The notes under the pieces are model-generated. The model did not search any database. It was not told the DNA's origin and worked only from the letters and a program-made list of their open reading frames with translations. The position numbers and the translations under genes were made by a program. 64,000 bases of DNA from a virus. Positions 11,404-45,004 of the stretch are shown piece after piece. How positions within the stretch are numbered: position 1 is the first letter of the stretch; every line of letters begins with the position of its first letter. Where the stretch lies: positions 1-64,000 of IMG/VR virus record IMGVR_UViG_3300044635_000318. One strand, 5' to 3'.

Positions 11404-11408
11404 CTACA

Positions 11409-12107: not shown

Positions 12108-12124
12108 TATTAAAATTAATTACT

Positions 12125-12675: not shown

Positions 12676-12678
12676 ACA

Positions 12679-12849
12679 ATGACACTCAAAGAACACATCA
12701 TAGGTAACTCTGCTACAGTGCTTGGACTTGTAATGTCGATGGCGCAAGTCAATCAGATATTAACAGCGGTATCTCTATTAGTTGCAATTGTAGTTAACGT
12801 ACAATTGTTCAGACATAGGGTAAATAATAAATCTAACAAAGACTTTTAA
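12679..12849 (+). CDS. Small membrane protein, holin candidate
   Basis: 56 residues, ATG at 12679 to TAA at 12849. A charged N-terminus (MTLKEHIIGN) is followed by one hydrophobic stretch (about 11-22) and a stronger one (about 26-44, ILTAVSLLVAIVVNVQLF), then a basic and polar tail (RHRVNNKSNKDF). Size, hydrophobic segments and charged tail fit a small holin, the protein that opens the inner membrane for lysis. It is tightly packed between two virion-module genes. It could instead be another small membrane protein. There is no obvious cytoplasmic endolysin beside it. Confidence 0.55.
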   Translation: MTLKEHIIGNSATVLGLVMSMAQVNQILTAVSLLVAIVVNVQLFRHRVNNKSNKDF

Positions 12850-12853
12850 TACA

Positions 12854-14293: not shown

Positions 14294-14775
14294 TGCACTC
14301 TCTTAAAGAGATATATAAAAGTTATTGCGTAGATTCAGACTCACCTCTGAGTAAAGAAGTCTTCAAATCATTGTGTGAAGAATTTAACATGATGGTTGTA
14401 GACTTCATCTTGGAAGGGGGAGTTCTGAATCTGCGTAATAATTTAGGGTATATGTCTATTCGTAGGATAGAACGAAATCCTAGTGCCCCTACAATAGATT
14501 GGTGGGAGAGTAATAAGTACAAACAAGAGTTGTTAAAGGAAGGTAAAAAGCTGTATGATGCTGAGACGGGGGAAGGAGAAAAGTGGTTTATCTATTACAC
14601 TGATAAGTGGTATTGCAAGTTTCACTGGGAGAAATCAAAGTGTAAAATCCCAAACAAAACAGCGTATAGGTTTACCCCATCTAGAGGATTAAAAGGGAAT
14701 AAAGAGAAGTTAATCAGTCTGTTAAAGAGTGATGATTTAGCATATCTAAGGTTTAAAAGTCATGGCAATATATAA
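14293..14775 (+). CDS. Conserved protein of unknown function
   Basis: 160 residues, overlapping the upstream stop by one base and the downstream start by 14. The N-terminal half is helical (LKEIYKSYCVDSDSPLSKEVFKSL); the rest is basic with many aromatics (WWESNKY, KWFIYYTDKWYCKFHW) and ends with RFTPSRGLKGNKEK. It resembles small proteins conserved among Bacteroidota phages in morphogenesis clusters, but I cannot assign a role. The basic, aromatic C-terminal half might bind nucleic acid. Confidence 0.65.
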   Translation: MHSLKEIYKSYCVDSDSPLSKEVFKSLCEEFNMMVVDFILEGGVLNLRNNLGYMSIRRIERNPSAPTIDWWESNKYKQELLKEGKKLYDAETGEGEKWFIYYTDKWYCKFHWEKSKCKIPNKTAYRFTPSRGLKGNKEKLISLLKSDDLAYLRFKSHGNI

Positions 14776-26685: not shown

Positions 26686-29493
26686 ATGCCTAATAAAAAT
26701 AAGAATTGGATCCAGTCTGCAATCAAAAGACCTGGGGCATTTACAGCTAAAGCTAAGTCTAAAGGAGTATCAGTCCCTAAGCTTATAAGTCAAGTCAAGA
26801 AGAATCCTAGCAAGTACAGCACTAGAACTGTGCGTCAAGCTAATTTGGCTAATACATTACGTAAATTCCAAGCAGCTGGGGCTACAAATGCTCAGATGTA
26901 CTCTACAAAAACTCCTGAAGGGTATTATGATCAGCTCAATCAAGAGCTCTTAGAACTTAATAAAGGATATGCTGAAACTCAAAAGCAACGTCAAGAACAA
27001 CAATCTGCAGCCAATCAAGAAGCTTTAACAAATACAGTACAAACTAGTGCTACTCAGATTGGGAAAGGACTGCAAACAGCTTTAAAAGGGAGTGAAGCAA
27101 CTAACTTAAAGGGTATAGCTCAAGGATTAAAAGGGACATCAGCTGGGACAGGACTTCTTGGGGCAGGATTATCATTAGCAGGAGCTGGGATTCAGAAAGC
27201 GTCTGATGACAAAGATTCTACAAAGTATAACGCTGGGGAAATTGGGGGTGGTTTAATGGGAGGGATTGGGAAAGGATTAGGAGCAGCAGGAACATTAGGA
27301 ATGTTAGCACCTGCATTAGCTGTCCCTGGAATTGGGTGGGCAGCAGCAGGTATTGGGGCTGCAGCAGCTGGAGCTAAGATGCTTATTGATAAGCGTAAAG
27401 CTGTTAAAGAGAAAGAGAAGAATGATGAGATGTTTGCTAAAAGCCGTAGAAGTATTGTAGATGCTCAACAAAAAGCTTTTGAGCAAGAGCGTACTATGGA
27501 AGGTATGGATCAAGGATTTAATATCGGGATGTCTCAAACCAATTCTTACGTTCCTAGCAATCAAAGAATGTACATGAAGAAGGGGGGAGAAATGATCAAG
27601 CGGGCTGATGGTTCATATTCTCAGAGAGGATTGTGGGATAACATTAGAGCTAACAAAGGATCTGGGAAGAAGCCTACTAAGCAAATGTTAGAGCAAGAGA
27701 AAAAGATTAAAGCTGAGATGATGGCCGGAGGCCAAGCTTTAAAAGGGGGTGCTATGCTCCCAATGTCTAACACAGCTGTAGAGTTTGTGGGAAATAAGCA
27801 TAACAAAGGTGGAATTATGCTTGACAGACAAACTGAAGTTGAAGGAGGAGAAACTATGGATAAGGTAATGTTCAAACAAGGAGGAGCTCAAGATTATATC
27901 TTCTCAGATTATCTTAAGCTTGGGGGTAAAACATTTGCTAGTCGTCATAAGAACTTAGTTAAATCAGGGGCATCTAGAGCTCAGATTCAAGAACTAGCTA
28001 AGCTTCAAGAGCAAGTAGCTAAAAAGAAAGGGCGAGATGAGAATGGACCTAGAGACCCTAATAAAATTGCACAAGCTGGGGGAGTAAGGAAATATCAGAA
28101 TGCAGGTGCTCCAGCAACTACTACTGCTTCAAATACCCCACCACCTGAACCGCCTTTTAACCCCTGGGCACCGAGTCTTACAACTACATTTGCCATACAA
28201 GGAAATAGAGGTATTGATAAAGAAACTACTATAGGAGGCCAACCTACAGGTAATTTATCTGGTACAGGGTGGGGACAATATTATTCCCAGTATCCTCTTT
28301 TTGAAGAAAGTCCCGAAAGGTTCTATGATGAGGTGTATACACCTGGAGTAAGAGAATACTTTTCGAATAATCCTGATCAAGCATATGCACAACTGCAAAA
28401 AATGGTAAGAGGAGATGATCCTAATGCAGATAACTTTAGAAAGATACTTCTTGATAAAGATGGGAAGATGCTCCCAAAAGAACAGGCACTTGCAAAAGCA
28501 GAAGAATTAGCAACAGATAAAAATGTTGGATCATTTCATATGCTTCTTCCTCTTGAGAAGCCTAAAGATATGATACCTATACCTATAATACCACCTGGTA
28601 CCATACCTACAAAACCTCCTGGTGGTACCATACCTGGGGATGAAGATAAACCAGGAGATATACCTAAAATACCACCTGGTATTACCATTCCTGAGAAACC
28701 CCCAATTATTCCCCCTTATCAAACTATTGGGCCATTAGCTGCATTAGCAACTAAATACCCTAAAGTTCAAGGGGCAGCTGCTATCCCATCAGGAAGATTA
28801 AATCTCCCTAGAGTAAACTTTAATGCTGAAAGAGCTGCTAGTGCTGCAGGACTTAGTGCTGCTAATAAAGCTTTAGAGAATCAAGTAGCTGGACCAGCAT
28901 CTATTGCCGCTCGTATGGCTCAAACAAATTCTGCTAGAGAAGCTAACTTAAGAACTTCAACTGCTGAAGCTCAAGCTAATAAAGAGTTAGCAGCTAATGA
29001 AGCACAGATTAATGCTGGGATATCATCTCAAAATGCTCAGAGAGGATTACAAGCTAGTATGTTTAATGCTCAGAATGTTAATGCTAGAAATCAAGCAGAG
29101 TATGAGCAAAACTTACTAGGAGCACAAGGGTTAGGGACAGCATTAGCTCAGTATCAGAATGACCTTATGAGTTATAAGTTCACTGAGAGATTAGCACGAG
29201 CTAATCAAATTGATGGGGAGTATGATCGTGCTAAGATGATGGAGAATATGGAGAAGGATGCTAGAAGAAATAAAACTTCCCCATTTAGAGACATGTCCTT
29301 CTACGATAGACGTATGAATGCTGCAGCACTGTATGACCGTACTAGAACATTAGAAGAACAAGAGACTCAGCGTAGAACAGCAATGGTTGAAGGGATGAAA
29401 GCTCAAAACCAACAGCAACAACAAGAAACAGAGCAGAAAAAGAAGGGTGGTAAGTATATCAAGAGGTCTAACAAAATTAACAGAAGAAGATAA
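26686..29493 (+). CDS. Cargo/internal virion protein with Gly-rich hydrophobic region
   Basis: 935 residues. N-terminus NKNWIQSAIKRPGAFTAKAK matches a W-I-Q...PGA motif common in crAss-like cargo proteins. Residues about 150-235 are Gly/Ala-rich and hydrophobic, able to insert into a membrane. MKKGGEM near 295, GNKHNKGGIML near 369 and EVEGGETMDKVMFKQGG follow, then GGVRKYQNAG at 465-474. A Pro-rich linker (about 625-680) leads to an Ala/Asn/Gln-rich helical domain and a basic end (KKKGGKYIKRSNKINRRR). It is probably packed in the virion and ejected with DNA. It overlaps the next ATG. Confidence 0.65.
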   Translation: MPNKNKNWIQSAIKRPGAFTAKAKSKGVSVPKLISQVKKNPSKYSTRTVRQANLANTLRKFQAAGATNAQMYSTKTPEGYYDQLNQELLELNKGYAETQKQRQEQQSAANQEALTNTVQTSATQIGKGLQTALKGSEATNLKGIAQGLKGTSAGTGLLGAGLSLAGAGIQKASDDKDSTKYNAGEIGGGLMGGIGKGLGAAGTLGMLAPALAVPGIGWAAAGIGAAAAGAKMLIDKRKAVKEKEKNDEMFAKSRRSIVDAQQKAFEQERTMEGMDQGFNIGMSQTNSYVPSNQRMYMKKGGEMIKRADGSYSQRGLWDNIRANKGSGKKPTKQMLEQEKKIKAEMMAGGQALKGGAMLPMSNTAVEFVGNKHNKGGIMLDRQTEVEGGETMDKVMFKQGGAQDYIFSDYLKLGGKTFASRHKNLVKSGASRAQIQELAKLQEQVAKKKGRDENGPRDPNKIAQAGGVRKYQNAGAPATTTASNTPPPEPPFNPWAPSLTTTFAIQGNRGIDKETTIGGQPTGNLSGTGWGQYYSQYPLFEESPERFYDEVYTPGVREYFSNNPDQAYAQLQKMVRGDDPNADNFRKILLDKDGKMLPKEQALAKAEELATDKNVGSFHMLLPLEKPKDMIPIPIIPPGTIPTKPPGGTIPGDEDKPGDIPKIPPGITIPEKPPIIPPYQTIGPLAALATKYPKVQGAAAIPSGRLNLPRVNFNAERAASAAGLSAANKALENQVAGPASIAARMAQTNSAREANLRTSTAEAQANKELAANEAQINAGISSQNAQRGLQASMFNAQNVNARNQAEYEQNLLGAQGLGTALAQYQNDLMSYKFTERLARANQIDGEYDRAKMMENMEKDARRNKTSPFRDMSFYDRRMNAAALYDRTRTLEEQETQRRTAMVEGMKAQNQQQQQETEQKKKGGKYIKRSNKINRRR

Positions 29494-31871
29494 TGCCTGT
29501 ACAGTTTGCACAACCGATATCACAGTTTGTAAATCCTAACTCTGTTGAAATATCTCAAATATTAAGAGATAGATATTTGAGAAGTTTTGCTGCTCAAGAT
29601 GAACTACAGCAAAAGTTATTAGAGCTACAGACTGCCCCATTTGCTGGGGATGTAGCTGCTAGAAACGCTTTGATAGCTGATACAAATAAAAAGTTAGGGG
29701 AATTTGCTGAACGTGGGGACTACGAAAACTTAACAGTTCCTATCGCCAATGTAGCTAGAGAAACATCTAAAAAATTTACCCCATTAGCTCAAAACTATGC
29801 AGCTTATGAAAAAGCTAAACAAGTTGAGCAAGAACGAATGCTGCGTGGGGATATTACAAGAACCCAATACGATAGATGGTTAGAGCGTAGTAAATACACT
29901 TATGACCAAGCATCTGGGGATTACTCTGCATACACTGGAGTACAATTTGATGATACGGGAAATGCAATACAATCTTCATTTTACACTCATACCCCAATCG
30001 CAGCAGCAGTAGATGTTGATAAAGAGATCTTAACTGCACTTAATACATTAGAAAGGGAAAAGACGGGAGGAAGTGTAAGTAGTGGATATGATGAACAAGG
30101 AGGATTAATATTTTACGTTCAAAGAGAAGGTCAAATTGTAGAACGTGTATCTCCTGAAAGAGTAGATGCAGCTGTTAGAGAAGTACTTAATCGTAGTAAT
30201 GTTAGATCTTATTTAGATCAAGAAGCTGAGTTCCAAATCTTTGATTTAAATGACCAAGAATTAAGCGTACTTTTAGGGCAAAAGGCTCAATCACGTAATC
30301 AAAGCATTCGTGGGTTAGCTGCAGATGCTATGCGAGGTTCTACAGGAGATAAAAGATCAGCTTTAAAAGAGATTATGGATGTTGAAAATACTTCTAAATA
30401 CTTAACCTACGGAAGAAACATTGTAGGTCCTGGAAGTAGATATGGGGGAGGAGTAACTAGAAGGTTTGAAGCTGATTTTACTGAAGCTGTGTATGGATCT
30501 GCCCCAACAGCTCCGCCTCCAGCCCCAGTAAATCCTTCTACAAACGGACAACCACTTTCAGTCCCAAGCGCATTTTATGATACAAATGAAAAAGCTATTA
30601 CGCAAGAAAAGTTAGATCAAACATTAAAAGAGAATAGACAACTTGCTACAACTTCTGTAGGATTAATTAAAAATAACTATGGAAAAGTATTCGATCATTT
30701 AATGGGACTTGCTGGAATTACTGAACATCAAAGACATAGACTAGCAGGTAATGACCCTCAAGCTTATAGCAATATTATGTTACAAGTTGGGAGACAGTTA
30801 CAAGGAATGACAAATCAACAACTTATAGAGGCAGCAAATAAAAGTGCTGATCCAAATGGGGCGTTTACATATCTACAAGCTCAAAGAGCACAGTTTAATA
30901 AACATCAAGCTATTATCAAAGCTGGGGAAGACTTTAATGCTACAGTAAGAAATGATGTAGGATTAACCTCAGATAAATTGATTGATGGGGCATTAGAAAT
31001 GTATGCTACTGGATATCAAGAGAGTGGAGTCAATAATCCTATTGCAGTCGATGATGTACCAGATGTATTAAATGCACAGACATTTGTAAACACAGTTTAT
31101 AGAATGCGTAAAGCATTAGGAGTAGATGATACTTTGATAAGAAGAGAGATTACATCTTCACTTTCAACACATTATGGATTAGATGCTACTGAAGCTGATC
31201 AACTTCTTAAGAATAAGAATACTGAGGCCATTGACCATAGATTAGTAGACTATTACGAACAGGTAAGAGCGGAAAGATCAGAACTTTTTAATGAAAAGTT
31301 AGGAACTTACTCTAATGCTACATTAACAATGAAAGAATTTGTTAATGCTCCTGGGGATAGAAGTAAAAACTTTGCAGATTCTGAGGCGATGAGGAAAACT
31401 GCGGTAGGTAATACTACATCTGGAATGAACATGGCTGGATTAACAGATATGCAGGGAGTAACTATCCCAGACTCTAAAATAACTAGATTAGCATTTACCA
31501 CAGTTCTTCAAAATGGGACAGCTATCCCAGCAGTATCTTTAGTGTTAGAAGATAAAACTCCAGTTATTGTTAGATATGAGGAAATCTTTACAAATGAAGG
31601 ATTTAAAAATCATATTTTAAGTCCAAAAACTGCAGATATATTAGGGGAAGCGTATACTTACACATACAATAACCCTGCATCAAGTGCTAAAGGAGCTCCT
31701 GCAGTAATCACTAGAAGTTTTTCTGACGGAGTATTGATAGCTAGACTATATCCAGTTGTTGGGGGTAATAACTCATTTGCAGGGTATGGAAAGGTAGAAA
31801 CTGAGTTTAATGGACAAAAAGCTGAAATGAGTTTTGATGAGTTTTTGTATTACTATAATACTATGGAATAA
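29493..31871 (+). CDS. Virion cargo-like helical protein
   Basis: 792 residues, mainly helical with Ala/Gln/Glu/Arg-rich stretches, no transmembrane segments and no catalytic motif seen. The N-terminus (MPVQFAQPISQFVNPNS) is an extended arm; residues 20-120 form long helices; a Pro-rich linker lies at about 335-350. Start and stop both overlap neighbours by one base, so it is translated within the chain of cargo-like genes. It is likely an internal or tail-lumen protein ejected during infection. Family not recognised in detail. Confidence 0.6.
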   Translation: MPVQFAQPISQFVNPNSVEISQILRDRYLRSFAAQDELQQKLLELQTAPFAGDVAARNALIADTNKKLGEFAERGDYENLTVPIANVARETSKKFTPLAQNYAAYEKAKQVEQERMLRGDITRTQYDRWLERSKYTYDQASGDYSAYTGVQFDDTGNAIQSSFYTHTPIAAAVDVDKEILTALNTLEREKTGGSVSSGYDEQGGLIFYVQREGQIVERVSPERVDAAVREVLNRSNVRSYLDQEAEFQIFDLNDQELSVLLGQKAQSRNQSIRGLAADAMRGSTGDKRSALKEIMDVENTSKYLTYGRNIVGPGSRYGGGVTRRFEADFTEAVYGSAPTAPPPAPVNPSTNGQPLSVPSAFYDTNEKAITQEKLDQTLKENRQLATTSVGLIKNNYGKVFDHLMGLAGITEHQRHRLAGNDPQAYSNIMLQVGRQLQGMTNQQLIEAANKSADPNGAFTYLQAQRAQFNKHQAIIKAGEDFNATVRNDVGLTSDKLIDGALEMYATGYQESGVNNPIAVDDVPDVLNAQTFVNTVYRMRKALGVDDTLIRREITSSLSTHYGLDATEADQLLKNKNTEAIDHRLVDYYEQVRAERSELFNEKLGTYSNATLTMKEFVNAPGDRSKNFADSEAMRKTAVGNTTSGMNMAGLTDMQGVTIPDSKITRLAFTTVLQNGTAIPAVSLVLEDKTPVIVRYEEIFTNEGFKNHILSPKTADILGEAYTYTYNNPASSAKGAPAVITRSFSDGVLIARLYPVVGGNNSFAGYGKVETEFNGQKAEMSFDEFLYYYNTME

Positions 31872-34800
31872 TGGAGCCAGAAAACGTAGAACTAAATCCT
31901 ATTACTAATCTTCCAGTAAGAAAAGCTCCAGTTAATCCTATTACTGGGAAACCATTAACTCAATCTCAGCTAAGTTCCCCATTCACTGGGGATCCAATGG
32001 CTTATGGGTTTACTCGTGATATGTCAGAATATACTGACTATGGAGTAAAAGTTACCCCTTATCAAGATATTGAAGAAGCTAGAGCAGAAGCTCAACCTGG
32101 GTATGAACAAGCTTACAGAGGAACTCTAAAAGCTCTTGGTACATTCGGAACGTCAGTTGGGATGGTAATAGCTGGCTCCGTCGAAGGTCTTTTAAGATTA
32201 GAAGATCAATTTGCAGTTGGGGGATTAGATAACGTAAATATTAGTAGAGCATTTGGGGAAGAAAATGAGACAAATAAATACTTAAATCAGTTAAATGAGG
32301 AACTACGTGAATCTATCCCAAATTATAAAACTCAAGAAGAGATTCAATCAATTGGGACATTTGGGGGAATGTTCAATACAAATTTTATTTTTGATGATGC
32401 TTTAAATGGATTTGCATTTTTAGGGGGAGCAGCAGCAACAGCTTGGTTAACTGGAGGGGCCGGAATATCAGGAGCTGTAGGAGGTGCAGCTGGATCGCTT
32501 GGGAGATTTGCAATGTTATCCCCTAGAGTTGCTGCTGGTGTGAATGCTTTAAAAGCTTCTAGAGCTGCTCAAGCATCTTTTTCTGCTGCAAATGCAGCTA
32601 AAATGAGGGCTGCAGCTTTTGCAACAGCAGTTAAAGCTACCCCAGCACTTAAAGCTGCGAGTAATCTCCCAGGAGCTGCTGCTGCAGGTAGAGTTGGGAG
32701 TAAATTATTTAGTGTAAATTCAATTCGAGGTCTTGAGACTGGGTTTTTAATGTCTACTTCAGAAGCTGCAGTAGAAGCATTTGAAGTTAAAAACCAGTAC
32801 AAAGAAAAGTTAATTCAAGAAGCTTTAAAAAAGTACAACGTAGAATCAGAATATGATCTTCCTGTTCAAGTTCAACAGAACATTAATCAGTTAGCTGAAA
32901 ACGTAGGAGCAGTATCTTTCTCAGCAAACCTCCCGATGTTAATGGCTACTAACATGTTTGCATTTAGACAGTTACTTCGTCCTGTATTAGCCCCAAGAAT
33001 TGCAGGGTTAAGTATGAAAGCAGGAAAAGCTGTTTATGCTCCTGGAAGTAAAGCATTAAGAGTTGGGAAAGTATTGGGGGCAGAATCTCTTAGTGAAGCC
33101 ATTCAAGAAGGATATCAGTGGGGAATTCAAGAAACATTAATCAATCAAGATCTTAATAAGTATAATGATTTTGGGTCAGCTGATATGTTCTATGGATTAG
33201 CTAAAGCAAGAGAGAATGATTTTATAGACGCTTTAAAAAAGACCCCAGAATTAGTCGGGAAACTTGCTGAAGCTCCATTCAATCCAGAAGGAAGGCACGC
33301 AATGATTTTAGGGGGATTGATTGGGGGAATAGTGTCTGGAATTAGATTATCTACTGGAAATCAATTTGAACAAGAAGATAAAAGAGGTGAAGCTGCTAAA
33401 GAGTTTTTAAACTCTGAGTTCTTTGGGAATTTACAGCAACGAGCTGCTCGATCTAATCGTGTATCAACTCACCTTAAGAACAAAGAAATCTTTGAAAAAG
33501 AAGGGAATACTGAGGCAGCTGAAAGAGAATTAGCAGCTATATTCCAAGAAGAAGCTTTATTTCACGTACAAAACGGATCTTGGGATGTCTTCTTAGAGCG
33601 TTTAGCGTTAGAAGCTGAAAAGCCATTAGATGAGTTTAAGAAGGATTTTGATATCCAAGATGATAACTACACTGCAGAAGATCAAAAGAAAACGGTTAAG
33701 AAATTAGCTGAGCAGTTAACAGACTTAGCAATATACAGTGATTCATTATCCTTTTTATTTCCTACAATCGAACGTCCTACAGGGTTAAAAAGAACACTAA
33801 CCTCTAAGAAAAGAATGCAGGAGATTGATGATCAGATTAAAGAACAAGAAATAATTAGAGGAGCTATTCTTAGGTCTCACTTTACAATTGGGAATCTTAA
33901 TGAGAAGATTACTGAGACTGCAGAAAGAATGAAACAGGAAATTCCTGAGATAGCTAATATGATTGATGACATTGTCAATACACGTAGAAGCTTATTTGGG
34001 GAATTGTTTTCTAAAGCTGAACGAGCTCAAAAAGATATTAAAGATGAAGAGCTTTATAACAGCATTAAGATTAAGAGCGATGAGTTAGTAGATAAATTAA
34101 ACAAGGCAGCTGAAGGAATACAAGATCCTGTACATCAAGTACTGTTTAATATCTATGCTCAAAAATTAGTTGATTTAACTCAAGAGCGAGATAACTACGA
34201 ACTTGCTAAAAACAATTTGGTTCGTTCCCCTAGTAAGAGAGATTTATTTGTAAGTAGAACAAAACTTGCTGAAGAAAATAAAATTTTTGAGGCTAGGGAA
34301 AAGGTATTAAAAGAAGCTATTGAATCAGCTAAAACATCTAAAGAACTTGCAGATCAAAAAGCTTCTTTAGGGAAAGAAATCGATAGCCACCCAGAACTTA
34401 AACTTCAACTTTCGAATGCTATTACAGCTAAGCTGAAAGAAGAGAATGATATTAATGAAAGATTTAATGGATTAACTCTAACAGAAGTAAAAGCTTTAAC
34501 AGGACTTTCCCCACAAGAAGAGTACGTTAGAAAGCTGCATTTAGCTAAAAGAGCTCAAGAATCCCCTATTACCCCTAAGAAAGAACAAGCTAAAAAAGAA
34601 CCCCCTAAAAAGCCAGAAGAGAAAAAAGAAAAGGAGGAAAAACCAGAAGGGAAAAAGAGTACAAAAGAAAAACTTAAATCACGTCGTAAAAAACAAGGGG
34701 AGCAATTACGTAAGAAAGTTGGGAGTTTAATATCTCTTCGTAATCATAATCGTACAACAATCAATCAGCAAACTTTTGGGGAGTTTGAAGTTGAAGAAGT

Positions 34801-37303
34801 TGATGGTAAATCTTATGTTGTTGTAGATAGTAAAGGTTCCCCAAATGAAGGGAACAGTAGAAGGCTAAATGGGGCCCCAATAATCAATCATGGGCTAATG
34901 AATAGCCCTAATATAAAGATAGGAGACACTGTAGAATTAAAAGTTATTGAAGATGATTGGTGGACATCAAATCCTAATGTTCCTAGAGATCATATTCAAG
35001 CTCCTATATATATCTTAGTTAAAGGTGTCCCTATTGGAATTCTTCAAAGTGGGGATCATCCAGTACGAGAAGCTGCATGGAATGCACATATCAACAAGAC
35101 AGGGGAAGTAATCTCAACCACAATTACTGAAAAGAATAGAGGATACATATTTAATGCTGTTCAAGCAGATGGAGAGAGTAGAGAAAAGTATTTCTATAGC
35201 TTAAAAACTGTAGAAAATGATTTACTAGCTTCTGAATACAATGTCCCTAACGTATTAGGGGTAGTAAAAAATGATGGGGAGATTGAGTTAAATATTGTCC
35301 CTAAAGAAGAAGATGCTTTTGAACTACAAGATAAAATTGCTGCAGAATTAAAAGCCGATGGATTAACTCCTGGACAAGTCTTCATGGTGCAGGTATCCCC
35401 TAATGGGAAGATAACAATTCTCCCATTACAAACCGCTACTTTAAATCAAATAGCTAGAGACCAGGCTGCACAGTTACTCGATAACTTAATTGAATTTGAA
35501 AAAGTTGTCGGGACAACTAACTTGTCAACTATACTTAATGTTGCTGACGAAGGTTTAGGGGAATTATCCCCATTAGCAGTAGAACCAACTTCTGGGGATA
35601 TTATATTTAAACCTGTTGGGGACTCAGTACCTGCTGAATTAATGCAGGCTGCTGAAGCAATGGGAGGAAATCTATTCATTAGAATTCCCGCAAGCTTATT
35701 AAAGCAAATGTGGAATAGGGAGGAAGTTAAGTTTGATCAAGCTACATTCTTAGATTTATTAGTTTATGTCCAAACAAAGGAAAACGATGATGGGACAACT
35801 AAACAAGTGTTTGAACAGTATCATCAAAAACTTTCGGGGGAAGAATATTCGAAATTAATTGGGATGTTAAAACCTCAAATCGCTTACATATTTAATGATC
35901 TGTTATTAGTTAAGAGGTACAATGTAAACATTGCAACATTATCAAACTCTAAAGCTTACACTGAAGAGTACACATCTAGCTTTACTGGGAATACATATAA
36001 GAATTATTATGAGTACTTAACTGCTGAAGAAGAAAACGCTTCTGAACGTAATGGGACTGCAGCAATATTAGGAGCTTCATTCACTAACGTAAACAAAAGT
36101 CTTGATGGATCTGGGGGATCTGTATTCTATGATACAGAAATTAAACTAAATCCTGAGTATAGTGTCAATGGGGTAGCTGTAACAGCTCAAGTAGAAGATA
36201 CTCCTGCAGAGACATACGAAGAAGAAACAGAAGAAGCAGAAGAAACTCAAGCTCCTGAAACTAAAACTGAGACTGAAGCTAATTTAGATGCTTTATTTAA
36301 TCCTGAAAGTACTCAACCAACTACTGTTCCCACAAACGCTACCCCCATTCCTGTAGTTAAAATTATATCTGGAGGACAGACAGGAGCTGATAGACTAGGA
36401 TTAGAAATTGCCAAAGAATTAGGGATTGAGACTGGAGGAGTAGCTCCTAGAGGGTACAAAACTGAAAGTGGGAGTGATGCAAGTTTAAAAGATTTTGGAT
36501 TAAGTGAAGACAGTTCTTCTGATTACAATCCACGTACAGAGAAAAATGTAAAAGCATCTGATGCTACAGTAATTTTTGGGGACATCAACTCTGCAGGATC
36601 TAAACTTACTGTAAAGCTTTTAAATCAAAATAATAAACCCTACGTTGTTAACCCTTCGGCAGAAGAACTTTCCAACTTCTTAAAAACGAATAATGTAAAG
36701 GTACTTAACGTAGCAGGGAATCGAGGAAGTAAATTAACTCCTTCACAAATAGAAAGCTATAAAAATACTTTACGTACAGCTCTACAACCTACACAACCAA
36801 CTACTGTTACTAAAGATGCTAAGATTAATGTAAAAGGCGCTTTGGTGTCACAAGGTACGTCTATAGAACTCGAGATAGTAGGAGATACAGGTAAGCCATT
36901 TTTACTAACTGTAGATAGAAAAGGTAAGATTACTCTATTTTCTGAGAAACAACTTGATGGTAGTTATATTGCAGGAGAGTATGCTCCAAAAGAAGCAGTG
37001 GATAAGTTATACAACAAATATGTTCCTGAAAAAACAAGAGAAGCTATAACTAATTGGGTAAATGCCTTTACTGGTTCTTGGGCTGCTCCAGAAACAGAAG
37101 ATGGTAAAAGATTCGATAAAGTAGAAAAATCACTTAATGCAGAACTATCTGCCTTAGAACCTACTCAACCTACTGAACAACAAAAAGAAGATAAACCTAA
37201 AAAAGAAAGAAGGGGCCCTAAAAGTTTTAATGATTTTAATGTTGAAGAAGAAGAAGGAAGGGATATTGCTAACCATTGTAATAATGATGATCCTCCGTTT
37301 TAA
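31871..37303 (+). CDS. Giant cargo-like protein with a cpYpsA/SLOG domain
   Basis: 1810 residues. In order: extended N-terminus; Gly/Ala-rich hydrophobic region (about 178-275); long helical region; Lys/Glu-rich linker (about 900-945); beta-containing middle; acidic linker (about 1445-1470); a circularly permuted YpsA SLOG domain (about 1497-1640) with ISGGQTGADR (1499-1508), GGVAPRGYKTESG, DYNPRTEKNV, DATVIFGD, LTVKLLNQNNKPYVV and VLNVAGNRGS; and a last domain (about 1650-1770). PTQPTT linkers bound the SLOG and last domains. SLOG domains bind nucleotides or nucleotide-derived signals. The rest resembles an injected internal virion protein. Confidence 0.7.
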   Translation: MEPENVELNPITNLPVRKAPVNPITGKPLTQSQLSSPFTGDPMAYGFTRDMSEYTDYGVKVTPYQDIEEARAEAQPGYEQAYRGTLKALGTFGTSVGMVIAGSVEGLLRLEDQFAVGGLDNVNISRAFGEENETNKYLNQLNEELRESIPNYKTQEEIQSIGTFGGMFNTNFIFDDALNGFAFLGGAAATAWLTGGAGISGAVGGAAGSLGRFAMLSPRVAAGVNALKASRAAQASFSAANAAKMRAAAFATAVKATPALKAASNLPGAAAAGRVGSKLFSVNSIRGLETGFLMSTSEAAVEAFEVKNQYKEKLIQEALKKYNVESEYDLPVQVQQNINQLAENVGAVSFSANLPMLMATNMFAFRQLLRPVLAPRIAGLSMKAGKAVYAPGSKALRVGKVLGAESLSEAIQEGYQWGIQETLINQDLNKYNDFGSADMFYGLAKARENDFIDALKKTPELVGKLAEAPFNPEGRHAMILGGLIGGIVSGIRLSTGNQFEQEDKRGEAAKEFLNSEFFGNLQQRAARSNRVSTHLKNKEIFEKEGNTEAAERELAAIFQEEALFHVQNGSWDVFLERLALEAEKPLDEFKKDFDIQDDNYTAEDQKKTVKKLAEQLTDLAIYSDSLSFLFPTIERPTGLKRTLTSKKRMQEIDDQIKEQEIIRGAILRSHFTIGNLNEKITETAERMKQEIPEIANMIDDIVNTRRSLFGELFSKAERAQKDIKDEELYNSIKIKSDELVDKLNKAAEGIQDPVHQVLFNIYAQKLVDLTQERDNYELAKNNLVRSPSKRDLFVSRTKLAEENKIFEAREKVLKEAIESAKTSKELADQKASLGKEIDSHPELKLQLSNAITAKLKEENDINERFNGLTLTEVKALTGLSPQEEYVRKLHLAKRAQESPITPKKEQAKKEPPKKPEEKKEKEEKPEGKKSTKEKLKSRRKKQGEQLRKKVGSLISLRNHNRTTINQQTFGEFEVEEVDGKSYVVVDSKGSPNEGNSRRLNGAPIINHGLMNSPNIKIGDTVELKVIEDDWWTSNPNVPRDHIQAPIYILVKGVPIGILQSGDHPVREAAWNAHINKTGEVISTTITEKNRGYIFNAVQADGESREKYFYSLKTVENDLLASEYNVPNVLGVVKNDGEIELNIVPKEEDAFELQDKIAAELKADGLTPGQVFMVQVSPNGKITILPLQTATLNQIARDQAAQLLDNLIEFEKVVGTTNLSTILNVADEGLGELSPLAVEPTSGDIIFKPVGDSVPAELMQAAEAMGGNLFIRIPASLLKQMWNREEVKFDQATFLDLLVYVQTKENDDGTTKQVFEQYHQKLSGEEYSKLIGMLKPQIAYIFNDLLLVKRYNVNIATLSNSKAYTEEYTSSFTGNTYKNYYEYLTAEEENASERNGTAAILGASFTNVNKSLDGSGGSVFYDTEIKLNPEYSVNGVAVTAQVEDTPAETYEEETEEAEETQAPETKTETEANLDALFNPESTQPTTVPTNATPIPVVKIISGGQTGADRLGLEIAKELGIETGGVAPRGYKTESGSDASLKDFGLSEDSSSDYNPRTEKNVKASDATVIFGDINSAGSKLTVKLLNQNNKPYVVNPSAEELSNFLKTNNVKVLNVAGNRGSKLTPSQIESYKNTLRTALQPTQPTTVTKDAKINVKGALVSQGTSIELEIVGDTGKPFLLTVDRKGKITLFSEKQLDGSYIAGEYAPKEAVDKLYNKYVPEKTREAITNWVNAFTGSWAAPETEDGKRFDKVEKSLNAELSALEPTQPTEQQKEDKPKKERRGPKSFNDFNVEEEEGRDIANHCNNDDPPF
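36311..37175 (+). repeat. Direct linker repeats around SLOG and terminal domains
   Basis: ACTCAACCAACTACTGTT at 36311-36328 and ACACAACCAACTACTGTT at 36791-36808 differ at one base; a shorter related copy (ACTCAACCTACTG) is at 37163-37175. They encode TQPTTV, TQPTTV and TQPTE. They bracket first the SLOG domain (about 460 bases) and then the last domain (about 355 bases), which points to cassette exchange or duplication of the linker. Confidence 0.65.
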
Positions 37304-37336: not shown

Positions 37337-40300
37337 ATGAAAAAAGCACCTTTTTGCCCAGTAAATAAAAATGATCCTGACTTTGTAAAACTTGTAAATA
37401 GATACGGGGAAAATCAAGCCTATTACATATGGTCTGAATACGAAGGAGTTGTTCCTTTACAAATTGTTAATGGGAATAAAAGGGCTAAAACTACAACATC
37501 ATTAATAGGTGTTGAAGAATACAGAGAGACAATTGATACAGTAAAAGCTGTATTCATTAACTTATTAAATACTTATCAGCAGAATAAAAGTATTAATGGG
37601 GAAACTATTAGCAGTAAAAAACTTACAGATTTTGTAAATGGTCTTCTTGGGGATGCAGAATTTAAAGGACATATCCCCAGATGGTTTCTAAAGAATTCAG
37701 TATCTATAAATGGGGAAAGATTATCCGCAGAACTGTTCAATGAATATGCTGCACTGTGGGATAAATATGCGCAAGCAAGTTTTAATAAAGCTCTTGAAAA
37801 TCAAATCCGTGAGGAACTAATAAATTTTCAAGATGCTTACAACATTGATAATATTCCCCCAAATAGCTATGCTACTCCTGAAGGTATGGATAGAGAGCTT
37901 ATTGCTGAAAAGTTTGAGATGGTGTATCAGCTATGGGGCAGTAAACTTGATGAGGCTGGGAATCCAGCATATCAGGGTTTACAAGAAGCTTTGGTTGGGG
38001 AGTTAAAATCACTAGGATATAAAACATTTGGGAAACAAGTTACTAGAGACCAAGAAGAGTTTGGGGAAATAGAAGAAGGTAACGTAGGGATCACTGAGAA
38101 AATTTACGCTCTGTCTTCTTTTGAGACTAATGTTAATAGATCTAAGGGCGCTACATACAATAGACTATTAAGTAGAGTACTAAGCTTAACCACAAACTCT
38201 TTTGGGTATCAAACCTATAGAGGACCTAGAAGAGTACACCAACAGCTATTAAGAATACTTGAGGGGGTTAAAACAAAAGAGGATGTTTTTAAGAGATTAG
38301 AAGGTAACAAAAGTGCAATTGTTAGATCCACTAATCTTTTAAGGGTTATTGAGAATTTTAATGAAGAAGAGTTTACTCAATTCTTAGGATTGTTTACTAC
38401 TATCAAACAGAAATATGTAGCTATCAGTAATAAGTTTGATGCGAAAGGAAATAAAATAGCTCTGTTTTATAATCCTGATAGGAGAAATGCAGTTAGCCTT
38501 GGGTTAGATACTTTAATCAATCAAGTAGTTGGACCAGGAGAAGATTCTCTTACGTTATTAAAACTTAAAAATGGGAAACTTACATACAATCCTAAGTTCT
38601 CCCCAGACATTATCAATAAACTTAACGTTCTATTAAGAGAACATGATGACGCTCGTAGAACGTTTGCACAAGATGATGCAACTTCGTATTTAACTTCTAT
38701 CGGAAAAATATTATATGAGCTCGGAATTGACTTTGGGGAAGGAAGTATCGAAGAATCTGCTGAAGAGTTTGTTCTCAGAGTTAAATCTTATATGGTTAAG
38801 AATGGGACTTTTGGGGGTAAAGCAATTACTGACTTTAAAAAACAGTTTGCAGCAACGTTTTTATCGTCTTTGAAAGATGTTTTCAAAGTAGAACAGATAG
38901 GGAAAACAGGGGATTTCAAAATAACCGGGGTAAAAGTTGCCCCTAAAAACTTTGTAAGTAATAACAAAACCCCATTCAAATGGTTAGCTGAGGTTATGTA
39001 CTCTGAGAATGAGAACATAGCAGATTCATTCATCAATGCTTCTGGGAATAATCAATATGCATGGACATATTCTAGTACGTTAGATGAGTTTTTCAAAGAA
39101 ATTGAAAAAGATGAAAAGACTGAAGCTTTTCTAAAAGAGTTTGAAAATATGTATTCTGTAGGTTCCCCAGGTCATCCAGAATACGCAAGTCTACTTTTTC
39201 AGTTAATTAAAAAAGGAGGGGTAAAACATGCAGAAGCTACATTCTTAGAGACCGAAGACGGAGATAAATTCCCAGTCAAATCTTTACCTGAAAGAGATAG
39301 ACTGATAATGCAATTAGATGCATATATCAATGAAGGTAAAACAAATGCAAGAATTAACTTAATTGCAGATGGGGATAGATTAAACAGACTCCCATTACTA
39401 GAACTCCCTAGACTTTACTCACAATCTCAATTAGATACCGTAACAAATAACCTCCCAACTAACGTTAAGAAAAATGTTGATATTATTCGCAATATCTTAA
39501 TTAGGGATTTAAGAAGAATCTATATTGAAAATCAAAACTTAGAGGCTCAAAAGTTTTTAAGAGCAGATGCAAGATTCAGTCTTTCTAAAATGAAAGATAC
39601 TGAAATAGATGGGGTTACATTATCAGCTCAAATTGAGGATATGCTAAACAGTGAAAGGGATAGCATTGTGTATTCTAAATTTTGGGAGGAAATCGATAGG
39701 CAAGCTCAAGAGTGGGTGGATATTACTTTAGAGGAAATGACTAATCAGTTTTATCAAAAACTGATAGACTATAAGATTGTTAAAGTATCTAGGAACCCAA
39801 TAGGGAAGAGTAAATTAGGGTTAAATCAAGATGAAAGAGAACAACTTTTAACCTCTACTGAACCTGTAGTATTAGAACTAGAGGATAAAAGATTACGGTA
39901 TCTAGAAGACAAACAGCTTGGGGGGGTAGCAAGGTATCAAGTTGTTTCTACCCAAAGAGGAGATGCATACTTTGAAATCCAAATGAGTGGGGGAAATGAA
40001 GTTACTTTCACTAGAGTAAAAGATGAATCTACTATTGAGTTTGGGGAAGAAACTACAAAGAGTAGACTTTCAGGCTTTGCAAAGATTATTGAAAAATCTG
40101 CAGAAGAAGATTCTACAAAAACATTAGTACGATCATTCGTGTTTGATCGAGCTGTTTATAAAGTAGAGTATGTAGATATGTTCTCTGGGGGTAAGAGTAG
40201 ATTCAAATCTGACTCTGAGATTTACAAAAGATGGTCATTGTTTTCTACTCCTGGGGAACCCCCTGTTATTGAAGACTTAGAAGCTGAGGACCCAATTGGG

Positions 40301-43300
40301 ATGCCTGAGACTTATAATGAAGCTAGTTTAGAAGACTTAAAAATCTTTGATGATGCCCACAACCAAATCGCAGATGAGATTGTAGAGGCTTTAAAGCGTC
40401 AAAGAAAGAAATTACTTGCGGAAGGGGAAGAGCTAACCAAAGAGGATATAGATGAAATAGAATCTATTGGAAATTCACTTAGAACAGGGAAAGCTGACAT
40501 TGCAGACGCATTGGGGATAATCAGTGAGGAGATGGATGTAAACCTCAGAAAAGGGTATTATCGTACTTGGACACAAGAAGAGAAAGAAGCTTTTGAATTC
40601 TACAAGAATACTGGGAAGTATATATTCGATATTATCCCACACAAGTTTATTTATGTAGCTACTAGAAATACTGCAAATCCTGGGCAAGGGAATTCAGGGA
40701 ACATGCAACAAGTATTTGATGCTGATAAAAACTCTTACTTAGTAATGACTAAAGAATTAGCTGCAAAGTCTGAACTCTTTCAGTATCTATATGATCTGAT
40801 GAAGGAGGGGAACATTCAAGTTTTAAACTTTAGGAGTGGAAAGAAAGGGATTAAGGATAACCTCAATCGAGTTCAAGATCCTCAAACAGGGGAATTACTC
40901 CCTATAAAACTTACCCCAACTGTACAGTACTCTAAGGATCTTAGAATGGTTCAAAGAGTTACTACCCCAACAAGGTTTAAAACAAAAGTAGGGAAACAGG
41001 TTAGGAATAATCAGCTAACCAATATCTTAAGCGATGATGAAATTATTCTTAATAGTAAATTCCCTGATAGAGCTGTAAAGCTAACTGGGAGAGAGCTTAA
41101 AAAATTGTATGCAGCATTATACTACAGATACTTTGAGATCAAAGATCAAGTATTGAATAATACGTTCTCATTTAATACTGCTTTGGAGGCTGATCCATTA
41201 ACTGCATTTTTTGGGAAGAATGAGTTAATGGAGGCTTATAGAGAACATTTCTTAGAACAAGAGGAATCTAGAAATGGGTATATAACTCCAGATGTAGCTG
41301 AATCAGCTGAGCTTATTAATACAGTTCAAGGGGTGGATTTTAATCTCCCAATGTCATTCCCAGGAAGCAGAGAGTTTGAATCTTTTGTAACTAAATTAAT
41401 TTCAAAAAAGGTTTTAGATTTAGAACTCCCAGGAGCTAACTATGTAGTTGCCCCAGGATCTGGGAAGTTTAGTATTATTGGACAGAACGGGGAAGAATCT
41501 TACAGAGAGCTTCAAATGTATGGAGTAAAAGATGGGGAGATTCAATATGCTGAGATGGCTGTTAGCCCAGAATTCTTAACTAAGTTCGGATATCAAATTG
41601 GGGATAACATTGATTTAAATACTCTTCTTAAAGTAATCCCAGAAGAAGCTAGAGTAGGGTTAACATACAGAACCCCACACACTGGAAAATCTTCAACTGT
41701 AGTATTCAAAATAGTTTCTTTACTTCCTGATACCTACAAAAAACACATCTTTGTCCCAGGTAACATTGTTACGGTTACTGGTATGGACTTTGACTTTGAT
41801 AAGCTATTTGCTTTGTTTTATAATCTTGAGGTAACTACTAACGAGGAAGGAGAGCAAGAAGTTTACAGAATCCCAGGGGTATACACTTTGGAAGATCTCC
41901 AAACTGCTAGTGTTAAAGAAATTGAGAATACAATGCTTGAGATCTTAGAAGCTATTCAGTTTCAAGAAAAGCATTTTGAAGAAGCTATTACTCCCTTGAA
42001 TACGGAAATGTATGAAGACTTTATCGAAAAATACATCGTTGATGACTACAGAGCTAGTGATATTCTTTTTGAATCTCCATTGTATGATGTCCAAGTTGTT
42101 ACTCGATATCAAGTCGCTCAAAAACTTGTTGGGATATACGCAAACGCTTACACTGGATTAGGGATATTGACAACATCTTCTGAGCAAATCGACAATGCTA
42201 AAGAGATTGGGGCATACATACATACTAGTAAATCAATTCAATACGAAGATTCTAACTCTTCTCTGGTTGTTAATGGGGTTACAATTTATGATGAGTTAGT
42301 TGGGAAAAGAGGAACGTTTCAATTAGATAGAGTCGTTAGTACTTCCCCTATTACAGGGAAACCTATTACTTATTACTTAACTAAAGACATTTCAGGAGCA
42401 GTTGACGCGGGGAATAATCCTTATCAAGCTTCTATCAATGAAGGTCCTGAAACTGCAAATGCTAAAGTATTTCTAGAGTCTTTGGGGATTGATGGGAGAA
42501 TTGTGAGTTTGTTAATCAACTCGCATAAAGTTAGAGCAGTAACTACAGCATTTAGGAATAACCAAAAGGAGGGAATGAATACAGCTTTTATGTATCCTGA
42601 TGGAGACGTAAGAGGATTAGACTATGTATTCTTAAAAGATGTTAGGAAGCACTCCCCCAATCTAGCTCTCCCTACATTTAATGTCACTGATCTATACTTT
42701 ATAAATGCTTATAGAACAGGGAAATTAGATCAATTAATTGCTTCTCTCCCTCAAACTTCTCCTGTAGTACAAACAGCTCGTGATATTGCTGGGGTAAAGC
42801 TTGAAACCAATCTACAGATTGTTCCTGCAACTACTTACAAAGGGATAGACATTGATGAGAGCAATACAAGATCTGCAGAAGGGACATTATCATTCGTGTT
42901 CAAAGCTGATAATAACACTAAGAAGATTAAACAGTTTGCTGAAAAATACGAAAGAGGATTTTTAGAGATAGATATTAGCTCAGGGTATGTAGTAACTGAT
43001 GAGATGGTTGATAGTATCGTAGATTTTATTAACTCTAGAGATATCAAAACATTACATATTACTGGGAATAACGTATTTGGGCTGTTTGACAAAAATCAAA
43101 CTGTAGCAAACGAGTTTATGCAAGAGCTGTTATCTAAAGTCAAAGATGCTGGGGGAGAGATTTCAACTCTTATAGCTAGAGGGGAATCTGGGATTCAAGA
43201 AGCAGCTATCAAAGCTGCTGATATGTTAGATATTACAACCACAATACGTGCCCCAAAGAATTATAGCTACACTACAAAGCTTAATACTATTGTTGAAGGG

Positions 43301-45004
43301 GAAGAAAACTTCCTTAGAAGATTTGGGATTGGGAGTGTAGAGACTGAAACTGTAAGTCCTAAACAGTATGAGTTTGATTCAGTGGAATCTCTTGAGCGTA
43401 AAGTAGAAGAAATTGAAACCAGTGCATTAAAGTTATTTGCTGCAGCTCACTTTGCTGGGAAAGAACTTATGAATGATTATGCGCTTATTACCCCGGATAA
43501 ATTAGATGAAGTCACTGATTTATTTTTAATCTTAGAGTATCTAGGAAAGTTAGATGCTATGGATAGAGGGACTGAGCAAAGATTACTCGATAAGGGTATA
43601 CTGCAAGATATTATATCTAATGGAAAATCTTTGCAAGGGGCTTACGTAAACTCTTATAGAAGAACAATTCAAAAAGAAGGATTAACAAATATTGCTGCGT
43701 TTGACTCAATGCAATCAATGATTGATCACATTAGAACTATTGTAGGGAAAGATTATTTGCAAGCAGCAGAGTTAAAACTCTTAACAAGGGTATTAAACTA
43801 TTGGATGCTCACTAAAGAAGGTTCCCCAATCTCTAGTTGGTATAATGAAACAACAATGAAGAGATTATACTTTGAGGAGGAAAACCTAAAAACTAGATTA
43901 GACCTATTAAAACAAAATCCTGCTTTGAGGAATAATCCTCTGATTCAAAGATTAGACACTTTAGAGGTAGGATCAAAAGAAGAACAAGCAGGAATTAATG
44001 TTGTGGTTCTTAGTGGGGTAGATGAGATTAGTGCAGAAGATACAAAAGAGCTAAAAGATGCTCTGGCTGAAATGCTGTATAGTCCATCAAAGATTACAAA
44101 AGACTCAGAATCTAGAAAGAGGATTCAAAGATTTGCTGAAGACTTAATTTATAATGCATTTTTTGCAACTGCATTCCTCCCAACTTACGGGGGATACACT
44201 AATCTTATCCCAGAAAGATTCCTTACAGAACCTAGGAAAGAAGAGACAAAATCTTTAGTTAAGTTTTATCGTGAAGAACTTGATAAAGCTTCAAAAGATC
44301 CTACATATTTCTTATCTGGGAATGCATTATTTGATGTAATACGAGCTATTGGGCATACAAATCCAGGTAAGTTTTCTCCTCTAATTCCTAGATATACAGG
44401 TAAAGTTTCCGAAGCAACAATCGATGAGGTAGTATTAGAAAGAGATGTAAAAACATACATCAAAGAGAAGATCCAAGCTAATAAAGACTTTGAGGGATTA
44501 TCTACAGCAAAGCAGGAAGAACTAGTTAAAGCTTTAGAGGCGGAAGCTAGAAAAGAGATAAATGCTTGGAATTCAATAATCATAAACCCTAGACAGTTTG
44601 CTGTAGATGAAAACCAACTAGAGGATTATATGGATTCAGAAATCATTTACGATAGTAAATCTCAAGTAGATGGATTTATCGAACTTAATCTCCCAGTGTT
44701 TATCACTAGAAAAACAAAACTAAAGAGCTTCCCAGTAATCACATACATGAGAGTCGGGGAAATTGAATATGCCCCAATCCAACCATTGGGGATGGGGAAA
44801 AACTTCTTCGAGTTAAACTTAAGAAGTGTTACTGGGAAAATAAAAAATGATAGTATTTTTACTACAGACTCTAGACAAAGAACAGATAAAGGACTAAAGA
44901 AGATACCCCAGGCTTCAATTAAATATCTTAAACAAGCTAGAGAAATAACTTTAGACTTAAGAGAAAGCTCTAACACGAAATCAACAAAAAAATGTAACTC
45001 ATGA
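37337..45004 (+). CDS. Virion DNA-dependent RNA polymerase (crAss-like) with SLOG-like region
   Basis: 2555 residues. VTGMDFDFDKLF places aspartates D1484, D1486 and D1488 in the DxDxD catalytic Mg-binding motif of double-psi beta-barrel RNA polymerases; crAss-like virion polymerases carry a matching DFDxD. An upstream region near residue 1215 (FKTKVGKQVRNN) is a candidate for the lysine-bearing second barrel. The N-terminus CPVNKNDPDFVKLVNRYGEN is a motif seen in large Bacteroidota-phage proteins. Residues about 1845-1985 form an extra Rossmann-like region ending GESGIQEAAIKAAD...APKNY, like SLOG domains. The enzyme is packaged and transcribes early genes after injection. Stop and next start overlap (ATGA). 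Confidence 0.8.
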   Translation: MKKAPFCPVNKNDPDFVKLVNRYGENQAYYIWSEYEGVVPLQIVNGNKRAKTTTSLIGVEEYRETIDTVKAVFINLLNTYQQNKSINGETISSKKLTDFVNGLLGDAEFKGHIPRWFLKNSVSINGERLSAELFNEYAALWDKYAQASFNKALENQIREELINFQDAYNIDNIPPNSYATPEGMDRELIAEKFEMVYQLWGSKLDEAGNPAYQGLQEALVGELKSLGYKTFGKQVTRDQEEFGEIEEGNVGITEKIYALSSFETNVNRSKGATYNRLLSRVLSLTTNSFGYQTYRGPRRVHQQLLRILEGVKTKEDVFKRLEGNKSAIVRSTNLLRVIENFNEEEFTQFLGLFTTIKQKYVAISNKFDAKGNKIALFYNPDRRNAVSLGLDTLINQVVGPGEDSLTLLKLKNGKLTYNPKFSPDIINKLNVLLREHDDARRTFAQDDATSYLTSIGKILYELGIDFGEGSIEESAEEFVLRVKSYMVKNGTFGGKAITDFKKQFAATFLSSLKDVFKVEQIGKTGDFKITGVKVAPKNFVSNNKTPFKWLAEVMYSENENIADSFINASGNNQYAWTYSSTLDEFFKEIEKDEKTEAFLKEFENMYSVGSPGHPEYASLLFQLIKKGGVKHAEATFLETEDGDKFPVKSLPERDRLIMQLDAYINEGKTNARINLIADGDRLNRLPLLELPRLYSQSQLDTVTNNLPTNVKKNVDIIRNILIRDLRRIYIENQNLEAQKFLRADARFSLSKMKDTEIDGVTLSAQIEDMLNSERDSIVYSKFWEEIDRQAQEWVDITLEEMTNQFYQKLIDYKIVKVSRNPIGKSKLGLNQDEREQLLTSTEPVVLELEDKRLRYLEDKQLGGVARYQVVSTQRGDAYFEIQMSGGNEVTFTRVKDESTIEFGEETTKSRLSGFAKIIEKSAEEDSTKTLVRSFVFDRAVYKVEYVDMFSGGKSRFKSDSEIYKRWSLFSTPGEPPVIEDLEAEDPIGMPETYNEASLEDLKIFDDAHNQIADEIVEALKRQRKKLLAEGEELTKEDIDEIESIGNSLRTGKADIADALGIISEEMDVNLRKGYYRTWTQEEKEAFEFYKNTGKYIFDIIPHKFIYVATRNTANPGQGNSGNMQQVFDADKNSYLVMTKELAAKSELFQYLYDLMKEGNIQVLNFRSGKKGIKDNLNRVQDPQTGELLPIKLTPTVQYSKDLRMVQRVTTPTRFKTKVGKQVRNNQLTNILSDDEIILNSKFPDRAVKLTGRELKKLYAALYYRYFEIKDQVLNNTFSFNTALEADPLTAFFGKNELMEAYREHFLEQEESRNGYITPDVAESAELINTVQGVDFNLPMSFPGSREFESFVTKLISKKVLDLELPGANYVVAPGSGKFSIIGQNGEESYRELQMYGVKDGEIQYAEMAVSPEFLTKFGYQIGDNIDLNTLLKVIPEEARVGLTYRTPHTGKSSTVVFKIVSLLPDTYKKHIFVPGNIVTVTGMDFDFDKLFALFYNLEVTTNEEGEQEVYRIPGVYTLEDLQTASVKEIENTMLEILEAIQFQEKHFEEAITPLNTEMYEDFIEKYIVDDYRASDILFESPLYDVQVVTRYQVAQKLVGIYANAYTGLGILTTSSEQIDNAKEIGAYIHTSKSIQYEDSNSSLVVNGVTIYDELVGKRGTFQLDRVVSTSPITGKPITYYLTKDISGAVDAGNNPYQASINEGPETANAKVFLESLGIDGRIVSLLINSHKVRAVTTAFRNNQKEGMNTAFMYPDGDVRGLDYVFLKDVRKHSPNLALPTFNVTDLYFINAYRTGKLDQLIASLPQTSPVVQTARDIAGVKLETNLQIVPATTYKGIDIDESNTRSAEGTLSFVFKADNNTKKIKQFAEKYERGFLEIDISSGYVVTDEMVDSIVDFINSRDIKTLHITGNNVFGLFDKNQTVANEFMQELLSKVKDAGGEISTLIARGESGIQEAAIKAADMLDITTTIRAPKNYSYTTKLNTIVEGEENFLRRFGIGSVETETVSPKQYEFDSVESLERKVEEIETSALKLFAAAHFAGKELMNDYALITPDKLDEVTDLFLILEYLGKLDAMDRGTEQRLLDKGILQDIISNGKSLQGAYVNSYRRTIQKEGLTNIAAFDSMQSMIDHIRTIVGKDYLQAAELKLLTRVLNYWMLTKEGSPISSWYNETTMKRLYFEEENLKTRLDLLKQNPALRNNPLIQRLDTLEVGSKEEQAGINVVVLSGVDEISAEDTKELKDALAEMLYSPSKITKDSESRKRIQRFAEDLIYNAFFATAFLPTYGGYTNLIPERFLTEPRKEETKSLVKFYREELDKASKDPTYFLSGNALFDVIRAIGHTNPGKFSPLIPRYTGKVSEATIDEVVLERDVKTYIKEKIQANKDFEGLSTAKQEELVKALEAEARKEINAWNSIIINPRQFAVDENQLEDYMDSEIIYDSKSQVDGFIELNLPVFITRKTKLKSFPVITYMRVGEIEYAPIQPLGMGKNFFELNLRSVTGKIKNDSIFTTDSRQRTDKGLKKIPQASIKYLKQAREITLDLRESSNTKSTKKCNS

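Follow-up and report, generated by a model that had tools for sequence, protein, structure and literature searches.

A cpYpsA-type SLOG domain in a putative virion-delivered RNA-polymerase cargo protein of a crassvirus

What might a complete SLOG domain of the circularly permuted YpsA type (cpYpsA) do inside a giant protein that is probably packaged with a phage's RNA polymerase? The question is raised by the 71.9 kb IMG/VR virus record IMGVR_UViG_3300044635_000318, of which positions 1 to 64,000 (64,000 nt, here called the window) were analysed; the domain lies in an open reading frame (ORF) of 1810 amino acids (aa) next to the gene for a virion RNA polymerase (vRNAP), and all window features described below are on the plus strand. 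The reading that we prefer, with a probability of roughly 45%, is that crassviruses carry the domain in their vRNAP cargo as an autonomous, laterally exchanged accessory effector, which is predicted to blunt host defence via a signal of the nicotinamide adenine dinucleotide (NAD+)/ADP-ribose (ADPr) type.

Concerning the identity of the domain, the presence of a complete cpYpsA SLOG with its full conserved pocket in the 1810-aa cargo protein is confirmed. The Pfam family PF12694 (cpYpsA) matches residues 1498-1623 with an E-value of 3.7e-28 and 98.5 bits (cut-off 26.2; the match spans positions 1-131 of the 145 in the profile), and all four motifs by which a sequence-only reading had recognised the domain are present. 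It is the only cpYpsA match at the family threshold in the 71.9 kb record; a search of NCBIfam gave nothing useful. Among solved structures, only 3IMK is convincingly related in sequence (phmmer against the PDB, E 2.1e-16), and the same structure is ranked first by Foldseek (E 1.1e-13, template-modelling scores 0.79/0.83) for an AlphaFold model of residues 1485-1650, in which the expected SLOG fold is recovered (mean predicted local distance difference test score, pLDDT, 92; predicted template-modelling score 0.87; alignment of 39 sequences, taken from the locus sequences only). The strand order of cpYpsA, with GGQTGxD first and the VAGNR strand last, is confirmed in sequence and model alike. 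By Pfam, PDB, AlphaFold and Foldseek, the domain comprises residues 1495-1630 (36353-36760); the span of 36311-36808 proposed for it earlier does include the domain, but takes in linker as well. An acidic, P/T-rich linker, recognised by its composition, precedes it (residues 1441-1494, 36191-36352), and 'QPTT' repeats flank it on either side in flexible-looking linkers.

Three motifs are conserved among viral relatives: the pocket loop ISGGQTGADR (residues 1499-1508, 36365-36394; all 39 relatives have G1501, Q1503, G1505 and D1507), the pocket strand RTxxN...SDxT (residues 1555-1566, 36533-36568; T1556 and N1559 invariant in the same 39) and, on the circularly permuted strand, LNVAGNR (residues 1612-1618, 36704-36724; N1613, A1615, G1616 and N1617 likewise invariant). 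In each of the 47 columns whose conservation among the 39 viral cpYpsA domains is 75% or higher, the window has the conserved residue, and the GGQTGxDR pocket has thus not been lost. The ratio of nonsynonymous to synonymous substitution rates (dN/dS) against the domain of locus L005 is about 0.14, and base composition bears no foreign signature in the SLOG (GC content 0.36 vs. 0.37). Sequence family, fold and the full set of pocket motifs are shared with PF12694 and its solved member 3IMK (a 'putative molybdenum carrier' of Syntrophus); however, that member is a small single-domain protein, whereas the window domain is embedded in the 1810-aa virion cargo protein.

The carrier is a single uninterrupted ORF (31871-37303). 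Its N-terminal region (residues 48-696, 32012-33958) is gp47-like and aligns by blastp with residues 90-677 of an ORF of locus L006 (22.6% identity, E 1e-13), which itself matches a crassvirus 'putative RNA-polymerase subunit' (E 6e-16) and a 'structural protein' of Cellulophaga phage phi17:2 (E 2e-21); crAss001 gp47 is reached by iterated profile. Most related crass contigs have the gp47-like domain at the N-terminus of a giant ORF, and several of these ORFs (e.g., in L131, L141 and L135) contain the polymerase core as well. Judged from these similarities, the 1810-aa ORF encodes a cargo protein of the gp47 type, with the intact SLOG near its C-terminus, and the vRNAP is encoded by the next ORF downstream. 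This vRNAP (37337-45004, 2555 aa) is gp50-like by tblastn to crAss001 gp50 (E 1e-6) and by alignment of its core, carries the catalytic DxDxD motif as DFDFD (residues 1484-1488, 41786-41800) in the alignment with crassvirus vRNAP cores, and belongs to a set whose core profile matches 6VR4, a solved DNA-dependent RNA polymerase, with E 2.4e-33.

The major capsid protein (2921-4360), which serves as taxonomic anchor, matches phrog_11589 (E 9e-83) and, over its full length, the capsid protein of Carjivirus communis (30% identity, E 8e-48), and most of the records that match it come from crassviruses and from phages infecting Bacteroidota. With this crassvirus capsid protein, a giant vRNAP with DxDxD core, and the gp47 and gp49 partners, the phage is by sequence a member of Crassvirales. 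The cargo proteins gp47, gp49 and gp50, as known from crAss001 and 6VR4, share with the window the gene order, the gp47-like N-terminus, the DxDxD core and the gp49-like partner, whereas neither 6VR4 nor crAss001 gives a SLOG match and the window possesses one intact and one decayed SLOG.

In crAss001, gp45, gp46, gp47, gp49 and gp50 are present in virions according to mass spectrometry (Bayfield 2023, PMC10172136), and the crassvirus RNA polymerase is translocated into the host along with the DNA (Yutin 2021, PMC7886860). By homology to this cargo, the 1810-aa protein would be packaged and injected; because gp47, gp49 and gp50 of crassviruses are published virion components, injection appears well supported, and the earlier description as a 'probable injected virion protein' gains strength from the gp47 family membership, the adjoining vRNAP and the crAss001 homologues in virions. 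The architecture fits that of polyvalent proteins, a class of giant multidomain proteins that enter the cell with phage DNA and in one of which an ADP-ribosyltransferase domain is joined to a vRNAP (Iyer 2017, PMC5512222); the main text of that paper mentions neither SLOG nor YspA nor cpYpsA. A Pfam scan of the 1810-aa protein found no LPD, MPTase or ART domain, and tblastn against named phages gave matches to the SLOG only, in Maribacter phages (standalone genes) and in Virus Rctr197k. A role of the protein as a membrane channel was dropped, a simple hydropathy scan having given no transmembrane-like stretch.

A second SLOG, overlooked by the sequence-only reading, is situated in the next ORF, at about residues 1831-2010 of the vRNAP (42827-43366). 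When 81 viral cpYpsA domains were combined into a profile, it matched the vRNAP in two pieces of reversed order (E 1.3e-7, computed in a small database of the window and shuffled proteins), and phrog_10774 is matched with E 1.5e-5. Here the second half comes first, then the TGNN strand and then the GGxxG half, an order also found in phrog_10774, in the standalone VCPH_00100 of Vibrio phage RYC and at the vRNAP C-termini of L131, L141, L158 and L165. A profile of these permuted domains matches 3IMK (E 6.8e-11) and does not match the polymerase 6VR4. These four crassvirus-like vRNAPs have kept an intact pocket, as has RYC with the GGQSGVD motif of its 187-aa protein; in the window, the copy of the same circular permutation is degenerate, lies inside a polymerase and keeps 19 of 48 invariant columns. 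The AlphaFold model of the second SLOG is fair (pLDDT 80), and in Foldseek generic Rossmann-like matches dominate, with 3IMK only in eighth place; such generic matches are expected if the strand order differs, and the identification thus rests on sequence profiles. An assignment as cpYpsA was rejected, as the strand order differs and the pocket is not intact, and the region is read as a decayed SLOG in another circular permutation.

This decayed copy bears on the idea that the intact SLOG, too, is a functionless passenger in this phage, left over from recombination. Loss of function evidently does occur within the same cargo set, but the complete retention of conserved columns and the low dN/dS against L005 make this idea quite improbable for the intact domain.

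How widespread SLOGs are in such cargo was assessed in two samples, 80 loci selected by vRNAP similarity alone and 80 selected by SLOG similarity, both of which are lists of best matches and not random draws. Relatives had to be collected with alignments: single-sequence searches of viral contigs with the window SLOG alone and with the whole vRNAP confirmed nothing. A SLOG is found in 7 of the 80 vRNAP-selected loci, three times in cpYpsA order and four times in the other order (the seven include L146, a contig identical with L012), and a crassvirus vRNAP core lies within the locus in 10 of the 80 SLOG-selected loci, one of which is shared with the vRNAP-selected set. The position of the SLOG varies: it is C-terminal to the core in the same ORF in L005, L007, L012, L013 and L063, N-terminal to it in the same ORF in L034 and L069, and, in L006, L030 and the window, located in the ORF that precedes the polymerase.

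Several further arrangements were observed. In L063, the end of the crassvirus-like vRNAP holds an RNase H domain (PF00075, E 4.6e-9; residues ~3394-3570 of the vRNAP ORF) immediately behind the SLOG. An ORF of L028 (2-20392, 6797 aa, open at both ends) brings a vRNAP core, a SLOG and a gp49-like region together in a single frame. In the giant ORF 2-9322 of L045, the RNA-polymerase-like motif ADLDGDKAS at residue 1144 stands just before the SLOG, and the crassvirus vRNAP profile gives no match. The giant ORF of L023 (7814-13597) exhibits, about 170 residues after its cpYpsA SLOG, a weak match to YAcAr SLOG (residues 1044-1103; 21 bits, cut-off 28.2), such that tandem SLOGs are possible there. 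L011 and L167 contain an identical standalone SLOG, the one in an IMG/VR contig and the other in the genome of Larkinella terrae, where it is probably a prophage gene.

Kinship among the SLOGs does not follow kinship among the polymerases. Between the window and L005, the SLOGs are 80% identical and the polymerase cores 27%, whereas L063 and L155 share 53% identity in the core and 40% in the SLOG; over 78 pairs, SLOG and core identity give a Spearman coefficient of -0.22. DNA similarity between the window and L005 is restricted to 36358-36772, i.e., to the SLOG domain. In a domain tree, 11 of the 13 crass SLOGs fall near one another, with weak support. The discordance indicates cassette exchange, with lateral transfer of the SLOG among crassvirus cargo proteins, and the domain stays constrained while moving (dN/dS as above). 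Taken together, its recurrence, a kinship at odds with that of the polymerases and the decay of the second copy suggest turnover under selection.

The same data bear on the main rival, in which the SLOG would be a ligand-sensing regulator of the vRNAP complex, with NAD+, an ADPr derivative or an alarmone switching early transcription according to host state. Such a role would suit the location of SLOGs within the polypeptides of the polymerase cargo, in many cases close to the extreme C-terminus of the vRNAP, and sensing has been proposed (Iyer 2022, PMC9503650) for fusions of SLOGs to nucleic-acid enzymes. An allosteric regulator would, however, be expected to co-evolve with its polymerase, and variable position relative to the core together with discordant kinship argues against a fixed allosteric interface; moreover, most sampled vRNAP loci have no SLOG, and the solved polymerase 6VR4 remains without a match to the permuted-SLOG profile. 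We consider this explanation unlikely, though still the strongest competitor to the accessory effector.

An accessory effector related to NAD or ADPr is favoured, circumstantially, by the cassette exchange, the mobile position and the neighbours of SLOGs in other giant phage ORFs. Directly before the cpYpsA SLOG of L016 (ORF 4835-15913) a DUF4326 domain is situated (E 6e-7), and L083 (ORF 842-7930) possesses a NADAR-like domain (E 1.9e-5; YbiA 2B3W, E 0.005); neither of these two giant ORFs contains a recognised vRNAP core. The NADAR-like match in L034 (ORF 7283-19519; E 9e-4) is below the Pfam cut-off, is without a PDB sequence match and counts as a hint only. A SLOG together with a weak NADAR-like match is also seen in the giant ORF of L036 (857-13681), and DUF7831 (PF25176), of unknown function, is found near the SLOG in giant ORFs of L036 and L039, once before and once after it.

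Phage SLOGs in general are predicted to sense or cleave signals resembling cyclic ADP-ribose (cADPR) or of ADPr type, and they co-occur with Macro, NADAR and DUF4326 domains, as stated in Iyer 2022 (PMC9503650); there, viral SLOGs are typically standalone, and the part available makes no mention of a setting in crassvirus vRNAP cargo. The SLOG of ThsA binds 3'cADPR (PMC11204291), and the phage proteins Tad1, Tad2 and RyDEP sponge or cleave cADPR-type signals (PMC12043709, PMC13232231). The SLOG of ThsA, the best-known sensor of this kind in Thoeris, is fused to SIR2 and gave no match to the window domain; ThsA and the countermeasures Tad1, Tad2 and RyDEP are different SLOG proteins or have unrelated folds. 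RyDEP furthermore acts after the start of infection, whereas virion delivery would be expected for the window SLOG. That phage SLOGs in general counter such signals is thus an already published prediction; the crassvirus vRNAP-cargo setting, the second SLOG, the recurrence, the discordance with the polymerase and the pairing with DUF4326 or NADAR-like domains in other giant phage ORFs are new here, no report on SLOG together with Crassvirales having been found in the open-licence literature, although an earlier mention elsewhere is possible.

A conserved pocket under purifying selection would equally suit a nucleotide-processing enzyme of infection metabolism, either a base-ribose hydrolase or an enzyme of nucleotide salvage or detoxification at the start of infection. 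SLOGs of the LOG clade release bases from AMP-type nucleotides (PMC9503650), and cpYpsA genes are present in many bacterial genomes, too; metabolic need, however, explains neither virion delivery nor lateral exchange of the cassette, and we regard this explanation as improbable.

Several points weigh against the defence-related effector itself. No recognisable SLOG is present in 73 of the 80 sampled crassvirus vRNAP loci, and the pairing with NADAR or DUF4326 is found mainly outside crass contigs, the crass set contributing only the weak match in L034. In the literature searched, neither a ligand nor an activity was found for any cpYpsA protein. As crassvirus RNA polymerases evolve unusually fast (Yutin 2021, PMC7886860), the absolute gap between SLOG and core identity is inflated; the reversed ranking of pairs stays unexplained by this.

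The surroundings of the carrier follow the organization known from crAss001: a series of ORFs of 1618, 935, 792, 1810, 2555 and 1567 aa parallels the order gp44-gp45-gp46-gp47-gp50-gp49. The 1618-aa virion structural protein (21801-26657; phrog_15100, E 2e-46, and a match to a Flavobacterium phage 'structural protein') occupies the position of the muzzle (gp44) and may, from position alone, be its counterpart. The two ORFs of 935 and 792 aa (26686-31871) stand, by crAss001 order only, where cargo proteins C1 (gp45) and C2 (gp46) would be expected, and are taken as their putative counterparts. Downstream of the vRNAP, the 1567-aa protein (45001-49704) is gp49-like by tblastn to the gp49 region of crAss001 (E 9e-15) and exhibits a weak PDDEXK nuclease match (PDDEXK_1, E 5.6e-4), just under the cut-off.

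The neighbours are DNA-handling proteins, and DprA is a SLOG protein that binds single-stranded DNA (PMC7824862), such that the domain could conceivably be a DprA-like nucleic-acid-binding module which holds DNA in packaging, ejection or template loading. Its closest match is nevertheless cpYpsA and not DprA, and the patchy presence and mobile position are unlike a constant structural role; this possibility appears very remote.

If the SLOG is an accessory effector, it would accompany the polymerase into the cell ahead of any phage transcription, refold there, and bind or cleave a small nucleotide derived from NAD+ or ADPr, most likely an immune signal, which would blunt host defence at once; the decayed SLOG of the vRNAP would represent an older module that has lost its function. 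The repeated addition of SLOGs to injected RNA-polymerase proteins suggests a ready-made counter-immune tool. We tentatively propose that the injected RNA-polymerase cargo of crassviruses serves to deliver interchangeable SLOGs, of at least two permutations, which might disarm nucleotide-based immunity before phage genes are expressed, are swapped between distant crassviruses, and decay in place when old. Known phage inhibitors of cADPR signalling such as RyDEP appear once infection has begun and race the host, whereas a pocket that comes in alongside the polymerase would be active from the outset. As a small, expressible domain, the SLOG is suited to direct tests of ligand and function, and even if the anti-defence reading fails, SLOGs in vRNAP cargo would still raise the question of whether a ligand controls early transcription in these very abundant phages.

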